Shown here: piece by piece, positions 2,643 through 17,176 of the stretch
Numbering within the stretch: position 1 is the stretch's first letter
Layout of the letters: each line of letters starts with the position of its first letter
DNA from: Elusimicrobia bacterium RIFCSPLOWO2_02_FULL_39_32
GTDB taxonomy: Bacteria; Elusimicrobiota; Elusimicrobia; 2-02-FULL-39-32
Reading direction: 5' to 3'
DNA length: 35,679 nt
Assembly (NCBI GenBank): GCA_001800135.1
Contig: MGUU01000026.1
Span: forward strand, 1-35,679
Made by a program: the position numbers and the translations under genes
Notes under the pieces: model-generated
The model's database searches: none
Seen by the model: the letters and a program-made list of their open reading frames with translations, nothing else
What the model was told of the DNA's origin: nothing

Positions 2643-3503
2643 ATGGAACGAACAAAACTAAATCATTTTGCGATTTTCGTATCTGTAATTACTTTTTTCT
2701 TAATTATAGCTGGGGCTCTAGTTACCTCTACAGGTTCTGGTCTTGCAGTGCCAGATTGGCCATTATCTTTTGGCAAATTTTTTCCTGCCATGACCGGAGG
2801 CGTGCTCTTTGAACATAGTCATAGGATGATTGCTGGAACTGTTGCAATTTTAACTGTTCTATTATCAATCTTTCTCTGGTTTAAAGAAGAGAGAAAATGG
2901 GTGGCATGGATCGGATCTGGCGCTGTTGGGGTTGTGGTTTTGCAAGCCCTGTTAGGAGGCGTAACAGTTCTGTATGGGCTTCCCCCATTTATTTCTATTG
3001 CACACGCTGTTTTAGCGCAAACTTTTTTTTGTTTAATGGTAAGCATCGCGCTTTTAACAAGCCCTTCATGGAACAGGAAAGAGCCGCCTGCACTTGAGAA
3101 ACAAACTCATTTAAAAACTTTATTTTCACTTGCCTTGATAGCTAATATCCTTATTTATATTCAACTTATTTTAGGAGCAGGGTTCCGCCATGGATTGGGG
3201 ATAAAACCTATTCAGTGGCACATGCTGAACGCGTTTTTCATTCTATTAATTTCTACTTTTGTTATTGGAAAAATTTTTAAGCAGTTTAAAAAAGAAAAAG
3301 GACTTTTTATTTCAGCTTGGGTCTTAATCTCTTTACTGCTTTTTCAAAATTTATTAGGGATAGAAACGATTCTTCCCATGTTTGGCATTCCTATTTATTT
3401 TGATAGAAGATGGATCAGCGCTTTGCATGTTGCCTGCGGGGCTCTTATTTTCGCTGTTTCCATTAAAATTACATTGGAAAGTTTTCATTTAAAAAATTTA
3501 TGA
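2643..3503 (+). CDS. ctaA: Haem A synthase CtaA/Cox15
   Basis: CtaA oxidises the C8 methyl of haem O to the formyl group of haem A in the inner membrane. The 286-residue protein has about eight membrane segments and the family motifs GSGLAVPDWPLSFG near the N-terminus, EHSHRMIAG, SIAHAVLAQ, QWHMLNAF and ALHVACGA; their histidines match the paired haem ligands of the two half-domains. The extracytoplasmic loop Cys pair of some Gram-positive CtaA proteins is absent. Its last four bases overlap the coxB start (ATGA), indicating translational coupling. With ctaB later in the operon it supplies haem A to the neighbouring oxidase. Confidence 0.93.
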   Translation: MERTKLNHFAIFVSVITFFLIIAGALVTSTGSGLAVPDWPLSFGKFFPAMTGGVLFEHSHRMIAGTVAILTVLLSIFLWFKEERKWVAWIGSGAVGVVVLQALLGGVTVLYGLPPFISIAHAVLAQTFFCLMVSIALLTSPSWNRKEPPALEKQTHLKTLFSLALIANILIYIQLILGAGFRHGLGIKPIQWHMLNAFFILLISTFVIGKIFKQFKKEKGLFISAWVLISLLLFQNLLGIETILPMFGIPIYFDRRWISALHVACGALIFAVSIKITLESFHLKNL

Positions 3504-4240
3504 ACCAAAATTATGGTTGGGGATTGCCTGTTCAAGCCTCTAGCTATGCCGGCAAATTGGATGGATCGCTTTTTTTACTTCATGGCGTTATGCTTTTAAT
3601 CTTTGTTCTCTGGGCCTTTTACATGATTTTTTGTTTGATCCGCTACCGTCAAAAAAATAGCAGCCGAGCTCTTTATTCCCATAGAACTCCTTTGTCGTCC
3701 TATATTCCAGACGCGTTAATGCTAATTTTTGAAATCTGGCTTATTTTTTTTGTAGGAATCCCAATTTGGGCTCATATTCGGGAAGATCTGCCAAAAGAAG
3801 AAACATCGGTGGCTCTCCATATTGTGGCGGAACAATTTGCCTGGACCATGCATTATCCCGGTCTGGATGGAAAATTCGGCAAACAGAATCCTTCCTTAAT
3901 TAATGCGGATAACCCTCTGGGTTTGGATGAAAATGATCCAGACAGCTTAGACGATATTGTGAGCGTGAACGAACTCCATCTTCCTTTAGGAAAACCCGCT
4001 CGCATACTGCTTTCCTCTAAAGATGTGATCCATAGTTTTTTTGTGCCAGAATTTAGAATAAAACAGGATGTTGTTCCCGGGATGAATATTCCCATCTGGT
4101 TTGAACCAACAAAAATTGGACAATTTGAAATTGGCTGCGCACAACTTTGCGGAACAGGCCATTACCGTATGAGAGGAGATGTTATTGTTCAATCTCCAGA
4201 AGAATTTGAGAATTGGACTAAGAGTAAAACAAAATCTTAA
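3500..4240 (+). CDS. coxB: Cytochrome c oxidase subunit II
   Basis: Subunit II carries the CuA centre that accepts electrons from cytochrome c. This 246-residue form has two membrane segments (about 26-48 and 72-90), an aromatic electron-entry patch QFAWTMHYP (Trp115), and CuA ligands His178 (VIHSFF), Cys213, Cys217, His221 and Met224 in GCAQLCGTGHYRM. The usual Glu between the two Cys is Gln215; that position coordinates through its backbone carbonyl, so function should be kept. There is no C-terminal haem c domain, so it is not a fused caa3-type subunit, which fits the separate dihaem cytochrome upstream. It starts inside the ctaA stop codon. Confidence 0.94.
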   Translation: MNQNYGWGLPVQASSYAGKLDGSLFLLHGVMLLIFVLWAFYMIFCLIRYRQKNSSRALYSHRTPLSSYIPDALMLIFEIWLIFFVGIPIWAHIREDLPKEETSVALHIVAEQFAWTMHYPGLDGKFGKQNPSLINADNPLGLDENDPDSLDDIVSVNELHLPLGKPARILLSSKDVIHSFFVPEFRIKQDVVPGMNIPIWFEPTKIGQFEIGCAQLCGTGHYRMRGDVIVQSPEEFENWTKSKTKS

Positions 4241-4320
4241 AATCGTCATTGGATTTAATGCCTCTTGATTATTTTGAACTAGAATATAAAAGAAAGTAAA
4301 AAATTTTAGGAACTTTAATA

Positions 4321-6045
4321 ATGCAAACAGAACATTTAGAATCTCATCAGGAAACTTTTATTCGTAAGTGGGTTTTCTCTCTAGACCATAAAACTATTGG
4401 TTTACAGTATATGTTTACTTCCCTCATCTTTCTACTTTTTGGATTTTCACTTGTTTTACTGATGCGCTGGCAGTTAGCTTATCCGGGCAGCGCTCTTCCT
4501 CTTATTGGATCTTATCTTCCTGATTCAATTGCTGCCGGCGGAGTCATGCACCCTGCGGGATACAATGCCCTAGGCGCCATGCATGGCACTATCATGATTT
4601 TTCTTGGGGTGGTGCCTTTAGGAGTGGGAGCCTTTGGAAATTATTTTCTCCCTTTACAAATTGGGGCGCGAGACATGGCTTTTCCTAGAATTAATATGAT
4701 GTCTTATTGGATTTATTTTATAGGCGGTGTTTTAATGCTGGCAAGTTTTTTTGTTCCCGGAGGAGCAGCCCAATCCGGCTGGACATCCTATGTTCCTCTT
4801 TCAATCCTTTCTCCGGGCCAAACTATCTGGTTATTTGCAATGACTTTTCTAATTACCTCCTCTCTTTTAGGATCTATTAATTTTATAGTGACCACATTAA
4901 ATCTACGCGCTCCGGGGCTTACATGGTCGCGTCTCCCTTTATTTGTTTGGGCGCAGTTTGTTACAGCGCTTTTACTTTTATTCGCGTTCCCAGTTCTGCA
5001 AGCTGGAGCGATTTTGCAGCTTTTAGACCGAGTTGCAAAAACAAGCTTTTTTATTCCATCTGGGCTTATTGTAGGCGGCGCTCCAGTGGAATATGCTGGA
5101 GGAGGCAGCGCTTTACTCTGGCAGCATCTTTTCTGGTTTCTAGCTCATCCAGAGGTTTATGTGCTTCTTTTGCCTGCCATGGGAATAGTTGCTGAAATTT
5201 TAGCGAACGGCACAAGAAAACCAATTTTTGGCTATAAAGAAATTGCCGGCTCTTTTTGTTTTATCGGCGTGCTTTCTTTTATGGTTTGGGCCCACCACAT
5301 GTTTGTCAGCGGCATGAAAACCTCTTTAAGCTATCTATTTATGACCACCACCATGATTATTTCTGTGCCTTCAGTGGCGATTATCACCTGTTTTCTCTTA
5401 AGCCTAAAAGGAGCTTCTATCCAATTTAAACTTCCCATGCTTTTTGCCCTTACGTTTTTACCCATGTTTGGGATTGGAGGTTTAACAGGTTTGCCTTTAG
5501 GATTTACCCCCACAGATGTTTATCTGCATGATACCTATTATGTGATTGGACACTTTCATTATGTGGTAGTCACAGGATCTCTGATCGCTTTGATGGGAGG
5601 CATCTATTATTGGTTTCCAAAAATGTTTGGCAGAAAAATGAATGAATTCTGGGGAAAGATTCATTTTTGGACTACGATTGTTTTTATGAATGGAATATTT
5701 TTCCCTATGTTCATACAAGGGTTAGCCGGGGTGCAAAGAAGGTTGTATGATCCAACCGTGCAAGCGCATAACTTAGTAGTCCAGCCTACCAATGTTTTAA
5801 TGACCTATTCTGCAATTCTCTTAATGATTGCTCAAATTCCATTTATTGTAAATTTCTTTGTAAGTATTTTTAAAGGAGAAAAAACTGAAGACAACCCTTG
5901 GCAAGCAACCACTTTAGAATGGGCATGCCCTTCTCCCCCTCTACCTCATAAGAACTTTGAAAAAATTCCAACAGTTTATAAAGGCCCTTATGAATATAAT
6001 GTGCCGGGAGAATCTTCAGACTTTTCTCCGCAACATTTACCTTAA
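4321..6045 (+). CDS. coxA: Cytochrome c oxidase subunit I (haem-copper)
   Basis: The catalytic subunit has 574 residues and about 12 membrane segments. Visible active-site residues are His88 for low-spin haem, the His276-Pro-Glu278-Val-Tyr280 set (CuB ligand, proton-gate Glu, cross-linked Tyr), His325-His326 for CuB, and His411/His413 in GHFHY. D-channel residues Asn107, Asp118 and Asn125 are present. The K-channel lysine is not: by ungapped alignment with remembered proteobacterial subunit I, SVPSVAIITCF replaces the consensus PTGIKIFSW, putting Ile354 (ATT, 5380-5382) at the Lys position. The retained Tyr and Glu argue for an oxygen reductase, not a nitric oxide reductase. AGGAA precedes the ATG by nine bases. 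Confidence 0.95.
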   Translation: MQTEHLESHQETFIRKWVFSLDHKTIGLQYMFTSLIFLLFGFSLVLLMRWQLAYPGSALPLIGSYLPDSIAAGGVMHPAGYNALGAMHGTIMIFLGVVPLGVGAFGNYFLPLQIGARDMAFPRINMMSYWIYFIGGVLMLASFFVPGGAAQSGWTSYVPLSILSPGQTIWLFAMTFLITSSLLGSINFIVTTLNLRAPGLTWSRLPLFVWAQFVTALLLLFAFPVLQAGAILQLLDRVAKTSFFIPSGLIVGGAPVEYAGGGSALLWQHLFWFLAHPEVYVLLLPAMGIVAEILANGTRKPIFGYKEIAGSFCFIGVLSFMVWAHHMFVSGMKTSLSYLFMTTTMIISVPSVAIITCFLLSLKGASIQFKLPMLFALTFLPMFGIGGLTGLPLGFTPTDVYLHDTYYVIGHFHYVVVTGSLIALMGGIYYWFPKMFGRKMNEFWGKIHFWTTIVFMNGIFFPMFIQGLAGVQRRLYDPTVQAHNLVVQPTNVLMTYSAILLMIAQIPFIVNFFVSIFKGEKTEDNPWQATTLEWACPSPPLPHKNFEKIPTVYKGPYEYNVPGESSDFSPQHLP

Positions 6046-6166
6046 AAATGAAAAAAATCTTGTTATCGCTCTCCAAATTCATTCAGGGTTTCTTAAAAAG
6101 ATGCAAAACGAAAAATTTAGAAATTTTTTTATTAAATTCATCTTCTAATTATTACATACAGGTTTA

Positions 6167-6754
6167 ATGATACATCAACCAGAAGCGATAGCTGAAACAG
6201 TGACTGGAATTCCTAACGGCAAGTTAGGCATGTGGGTTTTCTTAGCCTCAGAAGTAATGCTTTTTGGAGGATTCATCAGTTCCTATGTGGTTCTGCGCAC
6301 AGGAAGCAGTTTTTTTCCAATTCCCGCAAAAGAATTATTAGGAATTCCCCTTGCCACTCTTAACACTTTTGTTCTAATCACTAGCTCTGTCACTATGGTT
6401 TTAGCTTTAGACGCGATTCAAAAAGCAAACCAGAAAGGACTTATTCGAAATCTGGCCATAACCATTCTCTTAGGATTTTGTTTCTTAGCCATTAAATCCT
6501 ACGAATACCCGCACAAATGGCATGAAGGCATTACGATTTCCAGCAATCTTTTTGGCTCTTTTTATTTTACCCTTACCGGCCTTCACGGTTTGCATGTGAT
6601 TGGCGGAATAGCTTTTAATATCTATATCCTTGTCAATGCGATTAAAGGCTGCTATACTCAAGATCATTATGAAAGAGTGGAGTATGCCGGACTTTATTGG
6701 CACTTTGTGGATCTTGTCTGGATCATTTTATTTCCAATTTTTTATTTGCTATGA
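6167..6754 (+). CDS. coxC: Cytochrome c oxidase subunit III
   Basis: This 195-residue, five-helix form of subunit III lacks the two N-terminal helices of the seven-helix type, as is usual in bacterial caa3-like oxidases. Family motifs are LGMWVFLASEVMLFGGF near the start, LTGLHGLHVIGG, and YAGLYWHFVDLVWIILFPIFYLL split across the last helix. The protein stabilises subunit I and the D-channel entrance in the inner membrane. A 121-base gap separates it from coxA. That gap holds AT-rich DNA with an overlapping shadow frame but nothing I can identify. Confidence 0.92.
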   Translation: MIHQPEAIAETVTGIPNGKLGMWVFLASEVMLFGGFISSYVVLRTGSSFFPIPAKELLGIPLATLNTFVLITSSVTMVLALDAIQKANQKGLIRNLAITILLGFCFLAIKSYEYPHKWHEGITISSNLFGSFYFTLTGLHGLHVIGGIAFNIYILVNAIKGCYTQDHYERVEYAGLYWHFVDLVWIILFPIFYLL

Positions 6755-6815
6755 GTAAGAGCGCAAACAAGCGCAAAAAATATTATTTACTTTTAAAATC
6801 GCTTAAAAATCTTTT

Positions 6816-7073
6816 ATGAAAAAAACCTATCTTATCGTTTTTGGAACGTTAGCTGTTTTAACTTTACTCACGGTAGGAGTATCTTATCTTCATTTGAATC
6901 GGGCAGGAGCTATTACAGTAGCGCTTTTAGTAGCGGGAATTAAAGTTTCTCTGATCGCGGCATTTTTTATGCATCTTAAATTTGAAAAAAAAGTGATTCA
7001 TGGAATTTTTTATACCGCTCTATTTTTTGTCCTAATACTTCTTTTTTTAATTTTGCCAGATATTGGATTTTAG
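6816..7073 (+). CDS. coxD: Cytochrome c oxidase subunit IV (prokaryotic)
   Basis: This 85-residue membrane protein has three hydrophobic helices (about 5-26, 32-52, 62-82) with the family features THGVSYLHL-like TVGVSYLHL, a VALLVAGIKVSLIAAFFMHLKFE core and a short C-terminus. It is the bacterial subunit IV of caa3-type oxidases, a small accessory subunit beside subunits I and III. It lies between coxC and a small membrane protein gene, all in the same direction. The position supports the call as much as the sequence does. Confidence 0.85.
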   Translation: MKKTYLIVFGTLAVLTLLTVGVSYLHLNRAGAITVALLVAGIKVSLIAAFFMHLKFEKKVIHGIFYTALFFVLILLFLILPDIGF

Positions 7074-7076
7074 CCA

Positions 7077-7385
7077 ATGAAATATACAGCCCTCAAACCG
7101 AAACTTGGGATTGAAAATAGAATACTCGGGTTCAATTTCACTCCTAAATTAGGGTTTGTCAAAAAACTTCCATTATTTCATTTAATAAATTTTTTCTTTG
7201 TTACTCTGGCCACAGTTATTCTAGGGGATCTCCCCTCTCTTTATGCCTGCTCTGTTTGTTTTGGCAAAGGAAGCGAAGATTTACAAAAAGGGTTTTATTG
7301 GGGGATCCTTCTACTGCTTTTGCTGCCTGTTGCTTTAATTGGAACCATAGGAACAGCCATTATTTATAGTTCAAGAAAAAAATGA
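7077..7385 (+). CDS. Small membrane protein of oxidase operon
   Basis: This 102-residue protein is not a named family I can place with certainty. It has a polar N-terminal 28 residues, a hydrophobic segment (about 31-50) ending in a cleavage-like SLYA, then CSVCFGKGSEDLQKG and a second membrane helix (about 73-95) with a basic tail SSRKK. The Cys-x-x-Cys just after the first segment would face the periplasm. Short proteins with an ACSVCFG motif are found in oxidase operons of several phyla, so a role in assembly or metal handling is plausible but unproven. It starts three bases after coxD and overlaps ctaB by four bases (ATGA). Confidence 0.7.
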   Translation: MKYTALKPKLGIENRILGFNFTPKLGFVKKLPLFHLINFFFVTLATVILGDLPSLYACSVCFGKGSEDLQKGFYWGILLLLLLPVALIGTIGTAIIYSSRKK

Positions 7386-8284
7386 CAAAAAGTCTAGCTA
7401 TTTCTACTTTGCAAAAAAATTCAAGCGCCGCAGCAAGACTCTTAGACTATTTTCAACTTTCTAAACCCGGAATTCTATTTGCTGTTTTAATTTCTACTTT
7501 CACTGGTTTTTCTTTAGGAAGTTCAAATGGTTTAGATCTAGCCAAACTCATCCATACTCTTTTAGGGACTGCCATGGTTGCAAGCGGAGCCGGAGCTTTA
7601 AACATGCTGCTTGAACATAAAGAAGACTCGCTTATGGAACGCACAAAGAATAGGCCACTTCCTTCAGGAAGAATTTCCCTTGAAGAGGCTTTTTTTCTTG
7701 GGGTATTTAGTTCTTCCTTTGGGATCGTGCATCTTGCGGCAATGGTCAATCTGCTTGCAGCCTTTTTTGCGGCAAGCAGCTTAACCCTCTACCTTGTCTT
7801 CTACACCCCTCTTAAAAAAAGCGGTTTTTTTGGCGCGATCGTGGGAGCTGTCAGCGGCGCCATTCCTCCTATGATTGGCTGGAGCGCTAGTCATGGCGCG
7901 CCTGAAGTTCAAAGCTGGTCATTGTTTGCAATAGTTTTTTTCTGGCAATTTCCTCATATCCTTTCTCTTTTTTGGCTCTATAAAGAAGATTTTGAAAAAG
8001 CGGATTTTAAAATGGCTTTGTTCAAAGATAAAACAGGTTCTACCCTTGCAAAAACCGCTCTGATTTTTTCTTTTATTTTAATCTGCGCAAGTTTTATTCC
8101 CTACTTGCTTGGATTAGCAGGAACACTTTATTTTATTAGTTCCATGGTTCTTGGTTTTTCCATGATCGCTTGCTCTATCTACTTTTTAAAAAACCTTCAA
8201 CCCTTCTCCGCAAAAATATTCTTTTTTAACTCTATCTTCTATCTTCCTCTCCTATTCCTTATTTTGGTTTTAAACTCCAATTAA
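7382..8284 (+). CDS. ctaB: Haem O synthase / protohaem IX farnesyltransferase
   Basis: CtaB (CyoE) adds a farnesyl group to haem B, making haem O for CtaA. The 300-residue UbiA-superfamily protein has the prenyl-diphosphate and Mg2+ motif in the form EHKEDSLMERTKNRPLPSGR (about residues 79-98), the second conserved loop YKEDFEKADFKM, and about nine hydrophobic segments. The first core motif LSKPGILFAVLISTFTGF is also present. In the first motif the usual N-x-x-x-D arrangement is LEHKED, a modest deviation. Its ATG overlaps the previous stop codon. Confidence 0.93.
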   Translation: MTKSLAISTLQKNSSAAARLLDYFQLSKPGILFAVLISTFTGFSLGSSNGLDLAKLIHTLLGTAMVASGAGALNMLLEHKEDSLMERTKNRPLPSGRISLEEAFFLGVFSSSFGIVHLAAMVNLLAAFFAASSLTLYLVFYTPLKKSGFFGAIVGAVSGAIPPMIGWSASHGAPEVQSWSLFAIVFFWQFPHILSLFWLYKEDFEKADFKMALFKDKTGSTLAKTALIFSFILICASFIPYLLGLAGTLYFISSMVLGFSMIACSIYFLKNLQPFSAKIFFFNSIFYLPLLFLILVLNSN

Positions 8285-8354
8285 CCTAGAAAATAGCATT
8301 ATTCGTATCCAGTCCCTCTCCTATCAATATCCCCATGCCTCTTCTAATAGAAAA

Positions 8355-9233
8355 ATGGCTTTGGAAAATGTAAGTTTTAACGTGGGAAAAAATACGATTT
8401 TTGGTCTGCTAGGGCCTAATGGCGGAGGGAAAACCACTCTTTTTAAAATACTGACCACCTTTTTTCTTCCAACCTCAGGATCTGTTGAAATTTTTGGATT
8501 AGACATTCTTAAGGAAATGGCTGAGGCGCGAAAACAAATTGGAGTCATTTTTCAAAACCCAAGTTTAGATAAAAAACTTTCTGTAAAAGAAAATCTAACG
8601 CACCAAGGACATCTTTATGGTCTTTCTGGCTTAAAACTAAAAGAAAGAATTCTGCTTCTTCTGGAGCAAGGGGGCCTTTTGGAAATAGCCAATGAGCGAA
8701 TAGAAACTCTTTCAGGAGGCACGCAAAGAAGAGTAGAAATCCTAAAAGGTATGATCCATAACCCAAACTTGCTCCTGATGGATGAACCTACTTTTGGCTT
8801 AGACCCTGCGGCAAGAATCGCTCTCTGGGAAATTTTAAAAAATTTAAAACAAAATGGAACTACCATTGTTTGTACCACGCACCTCATGGAAGAGGCGGAA
8901 AAATGCGATTCTTTAGCTATTTTAAATGAAGGAAAGTTAGTGGCGCTGGATTCCCCCTCAAATCTTAAAAAAGAGATTGGAGGGGATGTAATTGCCATAG
9001 AAACCAACAATGCAACCTCTCTTAAAGAAGAATTAAAGAAAAAATTTGATCTTCAGACCATGCTGCTGGATGAAAAAACTCTTCACATAGAAAAAGAAAA
9101 AGGGGTGGAATTAATCACAGAGCTCATTCAAACTTTTGGCAAAGAAATAATTTCCATTAGTTTAAGTAAGCCCAGTCTGGAAGATGTCTTTATCCATAAA
9201 ACAGGACACAAGTTTCATACTAATACCAGATGA
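8355..9233 (+). CDS. ABC transporter ATPase, DrrA/NatA-like
   Basis: The nucleotide-binding subunit shows Walker A GPNGGGKTT (second Gly where Ala is usual), Q-loop IFQNPSLD, signature LSGGTQRRVEI, Walker B LLLMDEPTFGLDP, switch His in CTTHLMEEAEKC and a C-terminal LEDVFIHKTG tail typical of ABC-2 exporters. The coordinates use the first ATG, but the family's first strand lies upstream: codons 8298-8354 read IIRIQSLSYQYPHASSNRK in the same frame. The true start is probably a rare ATT at 8280 (overlapping the ctaB stop) or at 8298/8301, since no ATG, GTG or TTG occurs after the in-frame stop at 8271. The substrate is unknown. Confidence 0.92.
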   Translation: MALENVSFNVGKNTIFGLLGPNGGGKTTLFKILTTFFLPTSGSVEIFGLDILKEMAEARKQIGVIFQNPSLDKKLSVKENLTHQGHLYGLSGLKLKERILLLLEQGGLLEIANERIETLSGGTQRRVEILKGMIHNPNLLLMDEPTFGLDPAARIALWEILKNLKQNGTTIVCTTHLMEEAEKCDSLAILNEGKLVALDSPSNLKKEIGGDVIAIETNNATSLKEELKKKFDLQTMLLDEKTLHIEKEKGVELITELIQTFGKEIISISLSKPSLEDVFIHKTGHKFHTNTR

Positions 9234-10006
9234 ACAATCTATTTTTGCCTATAGTTAGCTTGTGGTATAGAGAAGTGATCCGTTTTTTACGGCAACCCTC
9301 TAGAGTGATTGGAGCGCTTGTTCCGCCCATCCTCTTTTGGTTTTTTATTGGCTCTGGATTGGGAAAATCTCCTTTTCAAACTTTTAGCCCGGAAGAAAAT
9401 TACATGCAGTATCTTTTTCCTGGAACCATTCTCATGATTGTGCTCTTCACCTCTATTTTTTCTACCATTTCAATCATTGAAGACAGAAAAGATGGATTCC
9501 TTCAATCTGTTATTATCGCGCCTATCCCAAGAAGCTCTATTGTTCTAGGCAAAATTTTAGGAGGAACTACTTTAGCTTTTTTTGAAGCTTTAGCTTTTTT
9601 GCTTTTAGCCCCTTTGCTTAAAATTCATTTTAGCTGGAACTCGCTTTTTATTGCCCTTTTACTGCTTTTTCTGATTTCAATGGGTTTAACAGGGATGGGA
9701 TTTATCCTTGCATGGCAGATGGATTCTACTCAAGGGTTTCATTCTGTTATGAATCTTTTTCTTATGCCGCTTTGGTTCCTTTCCGGAGCTCTTTTCCCTT
9801 TAGAAAGCGCCTCCCCTTGGTTACGTCTTCTCATGATTTTAGATCCTTTAACCTATGGCGTAGCTGGGTTAAGAACTGCTTTTTATTCTCAATCTTTACA
9901 CTCCGGCGGAAACTTTCCCTCCTTAACTCTTTGCTTATTTTCTAGTTTCATATTTTGTTTGTTTACTTTCACTCTTTCGCTTTTAGTCTGCAAACGAAAA
10001 ACTTAA
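9230..10006 (+). CDS. ABC-2 type transporter permease
   Basis: This 258-residue permease has six predicted membrane helices, an N-terminal amphipathic stretch (SLWYREVIRFLRQPSRVIG) and the ABC-2 loop EDRKDGFLQSVIIAPIPRSS. The C-terminal region LSGALFPLESASPWLR and DPLTYGVAGLR is also family-typical. It starts within the ATPase stop codon (ATGA), so the two are coupled and form one exporter. Similar ATPase-permease pairs follow ctaB in other oxidase clusters. Export of a cofactor, lipid or copper-related compound for oxidase assembly is possible but not shown. Confidence 0.9.
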   Translation: MNNLFLPIVSLWYREVIRFLRQPSRVIGALVPPILFWFFIGSGLGKSPFQTFSPEENYMQYLFPGTILMIVLFTSIFSTISIIEDRKDGFLQSVIIAPIPRSSIVLGKILGGTTLAFFEALAFLLLAPLLKIHFSWNSLFIALLLLFLISMGLTGMGFILAWQMDSTQGFHSVMNLFLMPLWFLSGALFPLESASPWLRLLMILDPLTYGVAGLRTAFYSQSLHSGGNFPSLTLCLFSSFIFCLFTFTLSLLVCKRKT

Positions 10007-11347: not shown

Positions 11348-11674
11348 ATGAAAGAAGCTCAAATTCCTTTTAAAAAAATAATTTTTGTCTGCACCAATGT
11401 TCGGGAAGGAGAAGATGCCTGCTCTAATCCTGAACGCGGTTCTAACTGCGGCATGAGTTTACTGGAAACTTTGAGAGATGAGGTTAAAAAACGAGGCTTA
11501 AAAGGAAAAATTAGAGTGGCAAAATCCGGCTGCATGGATCTGTGCGCAGCAGGGCCAAACATCATGGTTTTTGACTCAAATGGCGCTCAAAAATGGGTCA
11601 GCCACATAAGCCAAGCAGAACTTCCTCATTTTATTGAGGAACATTTAAAAATTAAAAGTGAGGGCCAAGAGTAA
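11348..11674 (+). CDS. Thioredoxin-fold [2Fe-2S] ferredoxin
   Basis: This 108-residue protein begins with the family signature IIFVCTNVREGEDAC and later has KSGCMDLCAAGPNIMV. Likely cluster ligands are Cys15, Cys25, Cys62 and Cys66, with Cys34 extra. Such small ferredoxins share the fold of the NuoE/HoxE cluster domain and carry one electron; the partner is unknown. A good ribosome site (GAAAGGGG) precedes the ATG. The last 23 bases overlap the end of the convergent 967-residue gene on the other strand. Position after the SCO fusion suggests the end of the respiratory run, with a 121-base gap before it. Confidence 0.88.
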   Translation: MKEAQIPFKKIIFVCTNVREGEDACSNPERGSNCGMSLLETLRDEVKKRGLKGKIRVAKSGCMDLCAAGPNIMVFDSNGAQKWVSHISQAELPHFIEEHLKIKSEGQE

Positions 11675-14555
11675 AGTAAAAGACCTGTTCCCCATCAGAG
11701 GTTCTTCTTGCCCAGTCTAGCTGCAAAACCACTGGAAAGGTTTGCAGCACAAAAGCCTGAAATCTTAATCCCAACCCAAAAGAATTGCGCAGATCTTCTA
11801 TTTTATAAGCTAACAACTGGTCTCGGCTGCTCCAAACAATTCCATTGTCTGTAAAGATGGAGCCATAGACATTTTTAAAAAGAAAATCAGGAAATAAAAA
11901 CCAGATGTGATAGTTTAAATCAAAAAATATAGGGAACCTCCACTCTAAATTTGAAATCAGAAAGCGATTCCCAACTGAATCTAAATCAAAACGGCCGTAA
12001 CCCCTAAGCAGATCATCCCCGCCTACTCTAAAAAGCTGTTTATCCCTGCCAAAACTGGAAGCGCCAAAAGCTCTAAATGCTAAAGCGCTCTCTTTTGGCA
12101 AAGGCGCAAATTGGTGCAGAGTCACAAAGATATTTCTGTAATCCACCTGGCTCCTCCACTGGTCATTGGACTCTTCTCCAGTCACAATGATCCGATGGCC
12201 CGCGCTTGTTTCTAAATATCTTCCCTGTGTCACATCTTTAAAATAAGTCAATGAAAATACGTTTTCCCTTCCTATTGACCGCAAAGAACCTAAGGAATCA
12301 TCTGTAAATTGAACGCGCCTTTGCGTGGTTAAAAAACGCGCTGCTAATTTTTCAAAACGATTTAAAGGATATTCTACTCCCACAAATTGAGCGTCTTCCC
12401 TGCGCACTTCCCGAGTGGTTAAGAGCACATTTTCTTCTGTATCCCCGGCAAAACCAAAGAAAATCTGAGGCCTGAACCGCAAATAAGAATAAAGGATTTG
12501 ATAGTTCAAAAAATCTAAGCGCGAAGCATAACTAAAAGATGTTTGCATCTGGTGATTGCCTAACATTTCAGAAGCTCTCCAATAAGCGGAAAGAAATAAA
12601 CCGTCTGTGGAAGAATAAAAAAGAATTGGAAAGAAAAAATCAGTGGAAGCTTTAAAAACATAATCTTCTTTTGCATGAAAAGAGATGGGAGATTTTTCTG
12701 GTTTTTCTTTATTAAAAGCTTGGCTAGAATTTAATTTAAAATCTTTAACCTCTCTTGCCTGGCTAAATAGCGTTTTAAGCTCAGCCCTATAAATTTGATG
12801 TTCTCCCTCTCTATAAGAAACAAAAAGCATCTCTTGGCGCTCCGGGGAAATAGCGGGATTAAAATTTCCTCCAATAATTTCAGTAAGTTTTAAGACTTTC
12901 CCTTCTTTAAGTAAAAGAGCATAGAGGTTATAAATATTCGCGCCATCATTGATGAATAGGATCGAATCTCCCAAAGAAGAAATAAAGGGTTGAGTTTCGT
13001 TCCCTGCAAGCTCTAAAAGTTTAGATTCTTTTCCAGTCTCTAAGGAATAAGACCATAAATCCCGTTCATAGAGATGCTTAGGATCGTTTCTATTTTCCTG
13101 AACCTTGATGTGCTGTGAAGATTGAGATGCGTTCCAGAAACCAATGTCAGTCCTAGAAATATTTTCCCTTGAAAAAAGAATTGACTTCCCATCTGGGAAA
13201 AAACGCAGATCGTTTTCATCTTCAAGAGTATGGGTTAATTGTTCAAGACCTTTCCCATTCTTATAAGCAATATAAATATCAGAAATTCCTTGTTTCATCC
13301 CAATAAAAATAATCTTTGTTCCGTCCGGAGAAAATTGAGGGGAAGTGACGCTTTCTAAAGGAAATTTTATTTTTTTTAGGCGATCCCTCTTAAGGTCATA
13401 GAAATAAAGAAAATCTTTCTGGCGGGTTTCCCCTGCAAAAAGAACTGTTGCTCCGTCCGGAGAAATGGAAAGAGCAGAACCAGTTCTTTTAATATTTTCA
13501 ATCTCTTTAGAAAAACGCGCTTGAATGTTTAAAGGCAGGGAACGATTTAAAAGAAGATCATGAATAAAAAGTTCAGTCACTCCGGAACGGTCAGAAAGAT
13601 AAATAAATTCTTTCCCTCCCGGCATAAAGACAGGGTGGGTATTAAAAATAGGATAAATTTGGTCAGAAGCGGTCAGCTTTTTTGCATAATGAGCAGGCTC
13701 TTTTAATTGAGAGGATTCTTCTTCATATTTTTCTTCCAAAGATTCTTTAAATTTCTCATTTAATTCAAAAATATTTAGCCCTAACAATTCCTGTAAAGCA
13801 TTGTTTATGTCAAATTTTTCAGCTATGTTTTCAAGCAAGAGCCCCACTTTTTCAGCTCCATACTCTTGCGCTATAAAGTCTAAAGCAGCGTTGCCGGTTT
13901 TATAAGCTAATGTGATTTGGTTTGGTTTTAGATGACTAAAACCATGCAGCATGGTTAAAGGAAGGAGAGTATGAGAGGTAACTGCATCTCGCAAAAGCAT
14001 CTCTTTTTGAGGATCATCTATCTCCCCGCTGGCATATTCCGCCATGCCTTCCATAAACCACAAAGGATATAATACGGATTTAAGCAGCTTAGCAGATTTC
14101 CAAAAGCCTGAGTAAAGCACATAAAACTGAACTTCATGAGTAAATTCATGTTTAATCACATGTTCTAACCATCTTTGAGTGCCGTCATTAAAAATAAGGA
14201 ACCTATTTTTAAACGCTTCTGTAACTCCGCCGGTTCCTTCTCCCACATCCACAATATTATTTTGCTCAAAATCATTGTGGTTCAAGAAGAAAAAAAAGGG
14301 AAGACGGCCTTTAACAGGGATATTGAGTCGTTCTGTGACCTCCTCATACGCATGCTCCAGATGCTCTGCCACAAAAGGGAGTAAAAGATCTGCCCCTTGA
14401 TAATGATATAAATCAAAATGAGCTGTTTTTAAAATACGCCATTTAAATTTTTTGGCAATCAGTTTATTTTGACTGGCAGAATGGGAGGATTGAATAAAAA
14501 GTAAAAAAAAGAAAAAAGGGATGAGCGCGTAAACTTTTTTTACGCGCGCCATCAT
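11652..14555 (-). CDS. Outer-membrane metallopeptidase/beta-propeller/Omp85-barrel fusion
   Basis: This 967-residue protein has a signal peptide (about 1-27). Residues about 35-290 form a peptidase MA-type domain with HEFTH (136-140) and downstream WFMEGMAEY supplying the third Glu of a gluzincin site. Residues about 290-620 carry PD40/TolB-like propeller repeats such as ISPDGATVLFAG, FSPDGTKIIFIG and FFPDGKSILFSR. Residues about 650-967 resemble an Omp85/bacterial surface antigen barrel, with LRGYGRFDLDSVGNRFL matching the conserved (V/L)RGY loop, and end in a terminal Phe. It should sit in the outer membrane with the peptidase and propeller in the periplasm. Substrate and role are unknown. 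Its ATGATG start overlaps the TPR gene stop. Confidence 0.82.
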   Translation of the reverse strand: MMARVKKVYALIPFFFFLLFIQSSHSASQNKLIAKKFKWRILKTAHFDLYHYQGADLLLPFVAEHLEHAYEEVTERLNIPVKGRLPFFFFLNHNDFEQNNIVDVGEGTGGVTEAFKNRFLIFNDGTQRWLEHVIKHEFTHEVQFYVLYSGFWKSAKLLKSVLYPLWFMEGMAEYASGEIDDPQKEMLLRDAVTSHTLLPLTMLHGFSHLKPNQITLAYKTGNAALDFIAQEYGAEKVGLLLENIAEKFDINNALQELLGLNIFELNEKFKESLEEKYEEESSQLKEPAHYAKKLTASDQIYPIFNTHPVFMPGGKEFIYLSDRSGVTELFIHDLLLNRSLPLNIQARFSKEIENIKRTGSALSISPDGATVLFAGETRQKDFLYFYDLKRDRLKKIKFPLESVTSPQFSPDGTKIIFIGMKQGISDIYIAYKNGKGLEQLTHTLEDENDLRFFPDGKSILFSRENISRTDIGFWNASQSSQHIKVQENRNDPKHLYERDLWSYSLETGKESKLLELAGNETQPFISSLGDSILFINDGANIYNLYALLLKEGKVLKLTEIIGGNFNPAISPERQEMLFVSYREGEHQIYRAELKTLFSQAREVKDFKLNSSQAFNKEKPEKSPISFHAKEDYVFKASTDFFFPILFYSSTDGLFLSAYWRASEMLGNHQMQTSFSYASRLDFLNYQILYSYLRFRPQIFFGFAGDTEENVLLTTREVRREDAQFVGVEYPLNRFEKLAARFLTTQRRVQFTDDSLGSLRSIGRENVFSLTYFKDVTQGRYLETSAGHRIIVTGEESNDQWRSQVDYRNIFVTLHQFAPLPKESALAFRAFGASSFGRDKQLFRVGGDDLLRGYGRFDLDSVGNRFLISNLEWRFPIFFDLNYHIWFLFPDFLFKNVYGSIFTDNGIVWSSRDQLLAYKIEDLRNSFGLGLRFQAFVLQTFPVVLQLDWARRTSDGEQVFYFTLGPHF
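14525..14547 (-). other. Perfect 9-bp hairpin in early codons
   Basis: GCGCGTAAA (14525-14533) and TTTACGCGC (14539-14547) form a perfect stem with a five-base loop inside codons 3-10 of the 967-residue gene, about eight bases after its start. In the minus-strand mRNA it could hinder ribosome loading unless translation runs in from the overlapping TPR gene. The Lys/Arg codons of a signal peptide could create such a palindrome by chance. Confidence 0.5.
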
Positions 14556-15484
14556 CTTTTTTTAAGTTTCTTTTTTAATGTTCTTACTTTTTGATTTAAA
14601 AAGGGATTTTTAGGGACTTTTTCCAATGCTTTTGAATAAATTTGAAACGCATCTTCTTGCCTGCCTAATGCCTCATAAGAAGATCCTAAGATAAGAAAAA
14701 GTTCCTGCTCTTCTGGAAATTTTTTAAGCAAATTTAAAGAAAAAGAAACAGCCTTTTCCCAATCCTGATGCGCCTTATAAAGCTGCAGAAGTGTTAAAGA
14801 GACCTCTTTAGTTAAAAGATGACCAGGGGAACTGGTTTCTAAAAGAGAAGCTGATTCTAAATTAGAAATGGCTTGGGTCAGGAAGGAGTCTAGCTGAACT
14901 TTTTCCTCTTGAGTTAATTTTTTTTTCTTTAATAAAAGTTCCGCATTTTTTTGAAAAGCTAAACCACAATTGACCAAAGAAGTAATATCTTTTGGGTCTT
15001 CTTTTAATAGCTCCTGATATTTTAAAATCGCCTCATTCCATTTTTGCATTTTCCAAAGCAGTCTGGCCAACCTTAAACGAATCTGCCTCTCTTTTGGTTC
15101 ATGCTTTAAAAACCTTTCATATTGTTTTTGAGCTTCCTCTAAAAGGGAGAGGTTTTCATAGAGAACGCCAGAGTAATAAAAGATCCTTTTATCAAAAGCC
15201 CCCTGTCTCCATGCCAAATTAAAACTATTTAAAGATTGGGCATAAGTCTCTTTGCCCATAAAAAAATAAGCTACGCCTTGGTCCACTAAGGAGGCAAGAT
15301 CATTTGCGTTTTTGGAATAGAGCTCTTGGCTTTTTTTAAGTTTTTTCTCTAGGGTGGTTTGCGAAGGGGGAGACTCTTCTAAACGAGGAAAAAATTGGGG
15401 TTCCGACCTATGAGGCGCAAAATAATAAATCCCTAAAAATAAAAATGGCGCAAGATAAAGATAGGAACGAGTGTTCCAGTTCAA
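14552..15484 (-). CDS. TPR-repeat protein with N-terminal membrane segment
   Basis: This 310-residue protein has one hydrophobic segment (about 8-25) and then helical tetratricopeptide repeats from about residue 45 to the end, for example LASLVDQGVAYFFMGKETYA, FYYSGVLYENLSLLEEAQKQ and LFLILGSSYEALGRQEDAFQ. TPRs bind other proteins; here they would face the periplasm from the inner membrane. The start is TTG at 15484, directly abutting the rpsA TAA; no ATG occurs before residue 76, which would remove the anchor. It overlaps the downstream barrel gene by four bases, so the two products are probably made together and may interact. No specific family is recognised. Confidence 0.8.
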   Translation of the reverse strand: MNWNTRSYLYLAPFLFLGIYYFAPHRSEPQFFPRLEESPPSQTTLEKKLKKSQELYSKNANDLASLVDQGVAYFFMGKETYAQSLNSFNLAWRQGAFDKRIFYYSGVLYENLSLLEEAQKQYERFLKHEPKERQIRLRLARLLWKMQKWNEAILKYQELLKEDPKDITSLVNCGLAFQKNAELLLKKKKLTQEEKVQLDSFLTQAISNLESASLLETSSPGHLLTKEVSLTLLQLYKAHQDWEKAVSFSLNLLKKFPEEQELFLILGSSYEALGRQEDAFQIYSKALEKVPKNPFLNQKVRTLKKKLKKR

Positions 15485-17176
15485 TTAGGAATTAAATAGT
15501 TGCCCTAAAGCAGGACCAGGAGATTTTTTAGAATATTTTTCCGCCGCTGCCCGCTGCAATTGGTGTTCCAAACGTTTAATGGAAAGATAAACCCTTCTTT
15601 CTTTTGCGTTTACGTCAGTCACCACAGCCTCAATTTCTTCTCCTACTTTTATAATGTCCGTGGGATGAACAAATTTTTCTGAGGAAAGTTCAGCCATTGC
15701 AATAAATCCTTGAAGCTGGTTTTCTAAATCAATAATGGCGCCAGAGGATTCGATTGAAACTACCTTGCCTTTTAATTTAGACCTTTTCCTAATCGCTTCA
15801 AAAGGATTGGACTCTTTTTGTTTTAAACCAAAAGATATTTTTTCTTTTTTTGCGTCAATCTCTAAAACTTTCACCTCAACGATCTCTCCAACTTTTAAAA
15901 CCTCTTTAGGGTTTTCAATTTTTTGAGTCCAGGAAAAATCAGAAATATGAATAAGCCCTTCTGGACCTTCCGGCAAACTAGCAAAAGCGCCAAAAGAAGC
16001 TAAAGAGCTGATGCGCACTTTAACCAGAGAACCCACTCGATATTTACTAGGGAACATTTCCCATGGGCTTTGTCCAGCGCGTTTAATGGAAAGAGAAATT
16101 TTTTCTTTTTCCCTATCTATCGCTAAAATTTTAACCTGAACTTTTTGGCCTGCTTTTAAAAGTTCTTTAGGTTTCTTTTTATCGCTACTCCAGGAAATTT
16201 CAGAAATATGCGCTAAACCTTCCACGTTGGGACAGATTTCAACAAAAGCTCCAAAATCCGTAAGGTGGGTTACCCTTCCATCTTGAATGGAACCTAAAGG
16301 AAATCTCTCTTCAATTTTTTCCCAAGGATGAGTAAGGAGCGTTTTTCTGGAAAGCGCTATTTTTTGGGATTCCTGATCAATCGCGATCACTTGCACTTCA
16401 ATTCTTTGACCGATTTTTAAAACATCTTTTACTCTTTTCGTATGAGCCCAATCTAATTCCCCAATGTGTAGAAGCGCTTCCATCCCTCCAATGTCAATAA
16501 ATGCTCCATAAGAAGTAATCCCGCGCACAATCCCCTCTCTCTTATCCCCTACTTTTAAAACAGTTAAAATCTCTTCCCTTTTTTTCTGGTCTTCTTCGCT
16601 TTTCCATAATTTTCTGGATAAAACCAAATTATTCTTGTGCGCATCAAAATCCATAACATACACTGTGATTTTTTGACCCATCCATTTTTTTAAATCTCGC
16701 ACGGGCCGAACATCAATTTGCGAAGCCGGCAAAAATCCTCTTAAACCATTTTCACACTCAACCACCAATCCGCCTTTTATTTCAAGAACAATTTTAGCTT
16801 GAAGAGGGGTTTTTGTCCTTAATGCCTGCTCTACTTCTTCCCATGCGATCTGTTCCTGTGCCCTTTTCCATGAAACTTTTGCATGCCCATCACTACTATT
16901 TCCTTGAACCTTGCAAACAGGGATCATTTCCCCCACTTTAAAAGGAAACTTAGTTCCAAATTCTTCCATAGGAATTAACGCTTCCATTTTTCTGCCTGTA
17001 TCCACTAAAACGCCGTCCTTAACAACACTAACTATTTCTGCCATAAATATGGGGTTTTGATTTGAGGATTGAGCAGCGCTTTCCTGCTCAAGTAGTTCTG
17101 CCATTCCGATTTCTTCTTCTGGAGAGTCTGAACTTGCGGACAAAGGAGGTTCTGCGCTTTTAAGCTCTTCTATCAT
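15485..17176 (-). CDS. rpsA: 30S ribosomal protein S1
   Basis: This 563-residue protein contains six S1 RNA-binding domains (about 42-105, 120-190, 208-278, 293-365, 380-452 and 465-533), of which the third to fifth are the most canonical (for example GITSYGAFIDIGGMEALLHI). S1 recruits mRNA to the 30S subunit. An acidic Ser-rich N-terminus and a basic C-terminal tail flank the domains. The ATG lies in an AT-rich leader without Shine-Dalgarno sequence, as in E. coli rpsA, whose product represses its own translation. An extended -10 promoter lies upstream. Position after cmk-plsC matches the common cmk-rpsA linkage. Confidence 0.95.
   Translation of the reverse strand: MIEELKSAEPPLSASSDSPEEEIGMAELLEQESAAQSSNQNPIFMAEIVSVVKDGVLVDTGRKMEALIPMEEFGTKFPFKVGEMIPVCKVQGNSSDGHAKVSWKRAQEQIAWEEVEQALRTKTPLQAKIVLEIKGGLVVECENGLRGFLPASQIDVRPVRDLKKWMGQKITVYVMDFDAHKNNLVLSRKLWKSEEDQKKREEILTVLKVGDKREGIVRGITSYGAFIDIGGMEALLHIGELDWAHTKRVKDVLKIGQRIEVQVIAIDQESQKIALSRKTLLTHPWEKIEERFPLGSIQDGRVTHLTDFGAFVEICPNVEGLAHISEISWSSDKKKPKELLKAGQKVQVKILAIDREKEKISLSIKRAGQSPWEMFPSKYRVGSLVKVRISSLASFGAFASLPEGPEGLIHISDFSWTQKIENPKEVLKVGEIVEVKVLEIDAKKEKISFGLKQKESNPFEAIRKRSKLKGKVVSIESSGAIIDLENQLQGFIAMAELSSEKFVHPTDIIKVGEEIEAVVTDVNAKERRVYLSIKRLEHQLQRAAAEKYSKKSPGPALGQLFNS

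Follow-up and report, generated by a model that had tools for sequence, protein, structure and literature searches.

The window analysed here is a stretch of 35,679 nucleotides of DNA from an Elusimicrobiota genome. It carries, all on the minus strand, a gene that we call PPO (for peptidase-propeller-Omp85), a gene for a TPR protein immediately upstream of it, and rpsA. The features of the locus, with the evidence on which each assignment is based, are the following:

11652..14555, minus strand: PPO gene, 967 aa, ATG start
14475..14555, minus strand: putative signal peptide, about residues 1-27 (MMARVKKVYALIPFFFFLLFIQSSHSA), read from the sequence; the N-terminus is of low confidence in the AlphaFold2 model
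13686..14438, minus strand: gluzincin peptidase domain, about residues 40-290 (Pfam PF13485), helical in the AlphaFold2 model and the best-conserved domain
14136..14150, minus strand: HEFTH, residues 136-140, the motif for zinc binding and catalysis, with H136, E137 and H140 invariant
14034..14051, minus strand: EGMAEY, residues 169-174, with E169 the presumed third zinc ligand (alignment of 48 sequences)
12756..13658, minus strand: TolB-like beta-propeller, about residues 300-600 (PD40 and TolB profiles, match to TolB structures, Foldseek)
11655..12650, minus strand: 16-strand Omp85 barrel without POTRA, residues 636-967 (AlphaFold2 strands, BamA-barrel profile match)
11997..12008, minus strand: LRGY, residues 850-853, the loop-6 motif of Omp85 proteins, here between barrel strands 11 and 12 (AlphaFold2 model, conservation of R851)
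14552..15484, minus strand: TPR protein, 310 aa, putatively anchored at its N-terminus; start codon TTG, immediately following the stop of rpsA
15485..17176, minus strand: rpsA (S1 protein), with six S1 stretches in Pfam (E 8.9e-84); conserved upstream neighbour

Profile searches bore out the sequence-only reading that a zinc peptidase, a TolB propeller and an Omp85 barrel are combined in one chain. Peptidase_MA_2 of Pfam (PF13485) matched residues 97-273 of PPO with an E value of 1.9e-14 (54.4 bits, against a cut-off of 32.4), and the propeller was detected with PD40 of Pfam (E 1.4e-20) and with TolB of NCBIfam (E 4.3e-31). The Pfam Omp85 model was not reached by the window sequence on its own; it was matched by 19 of the 48 members of the PPO family, with E values up to 0.01. 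A profile built from the 48 sequences aligned with BamA barrels over residues 631-960 (E about 1e-13 to 1e-14) and with TolB structures (E 2e-27). No POTRA domain was found in PPO by Pfam or in the AlphaFold2 model, in which a short linker separates the propeller from the barrel. The motifs that had been picked out by eye, HEFTH, EGMAEY, LRGY and a terminal Phe, are all present, the last as F967, the final residue of the protein. The putative signal peptide, as read from the sequence, has no lipobox cysteine. PPO and a convergent ORF of 108 aa, which has a weak match to DUF1636, overlap by 23 bases at their 3' ends (11652-11674).

Domain conservation and predicted structure

In the alignment of 48 PPO sequences, which come from several phyla, H136, E137, H140, W166, E169 and G170 were identical throughout, and E173 was kept in 47. 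PPO has the HExxH motif and the presumed downstream Glu ligand of a gluzincin, both invariant, in addition to a Pfam match above the cut-off. In the barrel, the lock residues R851, E871 and D903 did not vary among the 46 rows in which they are present, and F967 was kept in 42 of the 48 rows, with gaps at this position in five. Such conservation makes decay of the enzyme unlikely and speaks in favour of a genuine Omp85 lock. The mean identity between the window protein and its Elusimicrobiota relatives was 55% for the peptidase, 38% for the propeller and 44% for the barrel; the peptidase is thus the most conserved of the three domains.

An AlphaFold2 model of PPO was built on the 48-row alignment (pLDDT 87.6, pTM 0.87). 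In it, a helical peptidase (about residues 40-290) precedes the propeller (about 300-600), and a disordered linker leads from there to the 16 strands of the barrel (636-963); LRGY sits between barrel strands 11 and 12. The loop-6 motif of Omp85 proteins has the same place, between strands 11 and 12. Foldseek matched the model to TolB, BamA and TamA, and a search of viral structures returned generic propeller matches only. With a 16-strand Omp85 barrel in the predicted structure and the zinc-site residues invariant, neither of the two elements on which the original assignment depended is wanting.

Distribution and comparison with known proteins

A PPO protein 94% identical to that of the window is encoded by an Elusimicrobia MAG. 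Full-length homologues were found in 46 of the 149 sampled Elusimicrobiota genomes (about 31%), at about one copy each, and none was found among the listed genomes of family f10, which are small (1.3-1.7 Mb). Elsewhere, homologues occur in Gemmatimonadota, Eisenbacteria, Latescibacterota, KSB1, Zixibacteria, WOR-3 and one Spirochaetes MAG; these full-length copies span all three domains, and some genomes have several. The Elusimicrobiota sequences formed one clade in the tree. A mobile or phage origin of PPO is unsupported in view of this single clade; moreover, plasmid and phage records held no full-length match and PHROGs gave no match. In one Elusimicrobiota genome, two divergent peptidase-propeller-barrel paralogues lie in tandem away from rpsA (ORFs of 1145 and 1189 aa; locus L112, 563-9054).

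A plasmid gene of Salinibacter ruber codes for a 633-aa protein with a peptidase and a propeller and without a barrel. Its peptidase domain was weakly matched (Peptidase_MA_2, E 0.029; BSP, E 0.0002). We considered whether this could be a split PPO with a separate barrel, and rejected the idea, as the next gene codes for an S10-like peptidase. Away from the locus, the source genome itself has a TolB-like ORF and a BamA (five POTRAs), as well as two more Omp85 proteins. With BamA and a TolB-like protein thus encoded separately, PPO is an additional Omp85 protein. A second Peptidase_MA_2 protein, a 462-aa ORF, is also found in this genome (G000:C16:90872-91441).

PPO has the features of the Omp85 superfamily: a 16-strand C-terminal barrel in the AlphaFold2 model, the loop-6 motif with its partner acidic residues and a terminal aromatic residue. 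Subfamilies without POTRA appear in the main text of the classification by Heinz and Lithgow (PMC4104836), so that the missing POTRA does not bar PPO from the superfamily. In the same text, fusions of an N-terminal WD40 or TolB-like propeller to an Omp85 barrel were named the WD40-Omp85 subfamily in 2014, and a BamA-BamB-like role was suggested for them (PMC4104836). Among named groups this subfamily is the closest to PPO, which likewise has the propeller directly before a POTRA-less barrel and may be set apart by its peptidase; the main text describes none before the propeller (PMC4104836). The proposal that the locus is a candidate for an undescribed system was thus too strong. In the open-access literature outside preprints and supplements, we found the 2014 classification and no paper on a gluzincin domain in a propeller-Omp85 protein. 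PPO is, then, a genuine member of a known barrel family, in a widespread form that appears not to have been characterised.

Other proteins share part of this architecture. The 'Metallo' Omp85 subfamily has an enzyme-like domain before the barrel, but, in the main text of the classification, it is defined by PF00149 rather than by the gluzincin family PF13485, and no propeller is described (PMC4104836). Patatin-type Omp85 proteins such as PlpD carry an N-terminal hydrolase on an Omp85 barrel, and that of PlpD is periplasmic, against earlier belief (PMC11116518); unlike PPO, they are lipases with one POTRA and no propeller. BamA shares with PPO the 16-strand barrel, the RGY/F motif of loop 6 and the terminal aromatic residue, and differs in its POTRAs. 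TolB shares the propeller, as the profile match indicates, whereas in PPO the propeller is fused between a peptidase and a barrel. Finally, BepA, an M48 peptidase with TPR that works at BAM, is likewise a zinc peptidase of the outer membrane, and a TPR gene is found near PPO in half of the loci. However, the peptidase of PPO is of another family, the TPR is on a separate and non-obligate protein, and the barrel is within the chain. Few Omp85 proteins that carry an enzyme at the N-terminus have been characterised. PPO joins a catalytic metallopeptidase site, invariant in Elusimicrobiota and several other phyla, to a barrel in which the Omp85 lock is complete, and would test whether Omp85 barrels anchor or gate periplasmic enzymes rather than act as assembly factors.

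Possible functions of PPO

We propose that PPO is a periplasmic zinc metallopeptidase anchored in the outer membrane, with the propeller as a platform for substrates or partners, and we see about an even chance that this is correct. The signal peptide would send the protein through Sec, and the POTRA-less barrel, with its loop-6 lock intact, would be assembled in the outer membrane by the cell's BamA. The peptidase and the propeller would remain in the periplasm, as judged by analogy with PlpD (PMC11116518). There, the propeller could present substrates or bind a partner, in the way that TolB binds Pal, and the peptidase could cleave whatever envelope proteins or peptides reach it in this way. 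PPO would then be a membrane-tethered protease of quality control or maturation. No part in this is required of the TPR neighbour. The Salinibacter protein, with a peptidase and a propeller that do without a barrel, points to the first two domains as a working unit and to the barrel as an anchor or a gate. Against this proposal, an active insertase or translocase would also explain a loop-6 lock preserved in full. Were the barrel no more than a passive anchor, there would be no need to conserve R851, E871 and D903, unless they serve barrel stability, as they may.

The lock residues, together with the Omp85 fold, are also what speaks for PPO as a second machine for barrel assembly or translocation, a role that we consider rather unlikely. 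The barrel would insert clients or let them pass, the propeller would act as BamB does, and the peptidase would remove failed clients; by analogy with BAM and BepA, a chaperone and a protease would be fused in a single chain. The likening of propeller fusions to a BamA-BamB fusion in the main text of Heinz and Lithgow (PMC4104836) agrees with this, as does the finding that BepA of E. coli, itself a zinc peptidase, acts on LptD at BAM (PMC8423444). However, PPO has no POTRA, the cell encodes a separate BamA, most of the sampled Elusimicrobiota genomes have no PPO gene, and the peptidase and propeller are found without the barrel. It is similarly unlikely, in our estimate, that PPO is a single-chain machine of outer-membrane proteostasis, in which an active Omp85 insertase or gate, a client-binding propeller and a zinc protease would work parallel to BAM in several phyla.

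Clearly less probable is that the barrel exports the peptidase and propeller to the cell surface, where PPO would serve as a surface protease. Type Vd secretion, as once proposed for PlpD, was conceived for this kind of layout, with the enzyme N-terminal to an Omp85 barrel (PMC11116518), but the periplasmic location of the PlpD enzyme domain argues against such a route, and two large folded domains would need to pass through a 16-strand barrel.

The TPR gene and the remaining alternatives

The TPR gene and PPO overlap by four bases (ATGA), and the TTG start of the TPR gene follows the rpsA stop at 15485 without a gap, both as had been noted. The TPR protein had also been placed in the inner membrane. 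Members of its family do share an N-terminal hydrophobic stretch, followed by a conserved FFPR motif; the stretch was read by eye, and the protein may thus be anchored in a membrane. For the TPR protein by itself, structure prediction without an alignment gave a poor model (pLDDT 65), so that the structure matches of this model show the generic TPR fold only.

The sequence-only reading went on to treat the TPR protein as a partner coupled to PPO, the two possibly forming a complex that spans the envelope and inserts or processes proteins or lipids. The four-base overlap favours such a pair, and so does the order of the genes across the phylum. We counted orthologous Elusimicrobiota loci with enough context, leaving out the divergent paralogue lineage L112-L115. 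In 44 of these 47 loci, rpsA and/or the TPR gene lay directly upstream of PPO. The TPR gene was between rpsA and PPO in 24 loci (rpsA-TPR-PPO in 23, and one at a contig end). Roughly half of the loci thus show the linkage, so that the sequence-only reading is not refuted by a complete lack of it. In 20 loci, however, rpsA was directly upstream of PPO with no recognised TPR gene between them, although in five of these the gap exceeds 220 bases and a diverged gene could hide there. Among 60 genomes, the window's own and 59 relatives, 18 had both genes, 10 PPO only, 13 the TPR gene only and 19 neither (Fisher p 0.08, a value that ignores kinship and incompleteness), so that the pairing is not obligate. 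Each of the 13 genomes with the TPR gene only still has it behind rpsA. In other phyla, no copy of the TPR family was found adjacent to PPO; in Gemmatimonadota (loci L033-L103), PPO is in a conserved cluster with the order rplI, DUF2232, rsfS, PPO, SPOR-domain protein, smc. On the basis of the co-occurrence and the TPR-only genomes, we rejected the TPR protein as a dedicated partner of PPO, and an envelope-spanning complex of the two appears improbable. Given their independent occurrence, both genes are best seen as separate tenants of an old cmk-plsC-rpsA cluster, the TPR gene being mostly a neighbour of rpsA. An apparent rpsA-TPR fusion at one locus (L120) was an artefact of masked bases.

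It is very improbable that PPO is a structural protein with its peptidase domain a non-catalytic binding module, since pseudo-enzymes usually lose the HExxH motif, with its catalytic Glu, and the presumed third ligand, which are invariant here.

Two further observations concern the surroundings. The TPR gene with the hydrophobic stretch and FFPR motif, which stands behind rpsA in 13 class-level relatives without PPO (loci L138-L150), represents a conserved, rpsA-linked and putatively membrane-bound family. Within the window, 2643-10006 appears, from the translations, to hold a heme-copper oxidase-like cluster (CtaA-, cox2-, cox1- and cox3-like genes and one like that for heme O synthase), followed by an ABC transporter.
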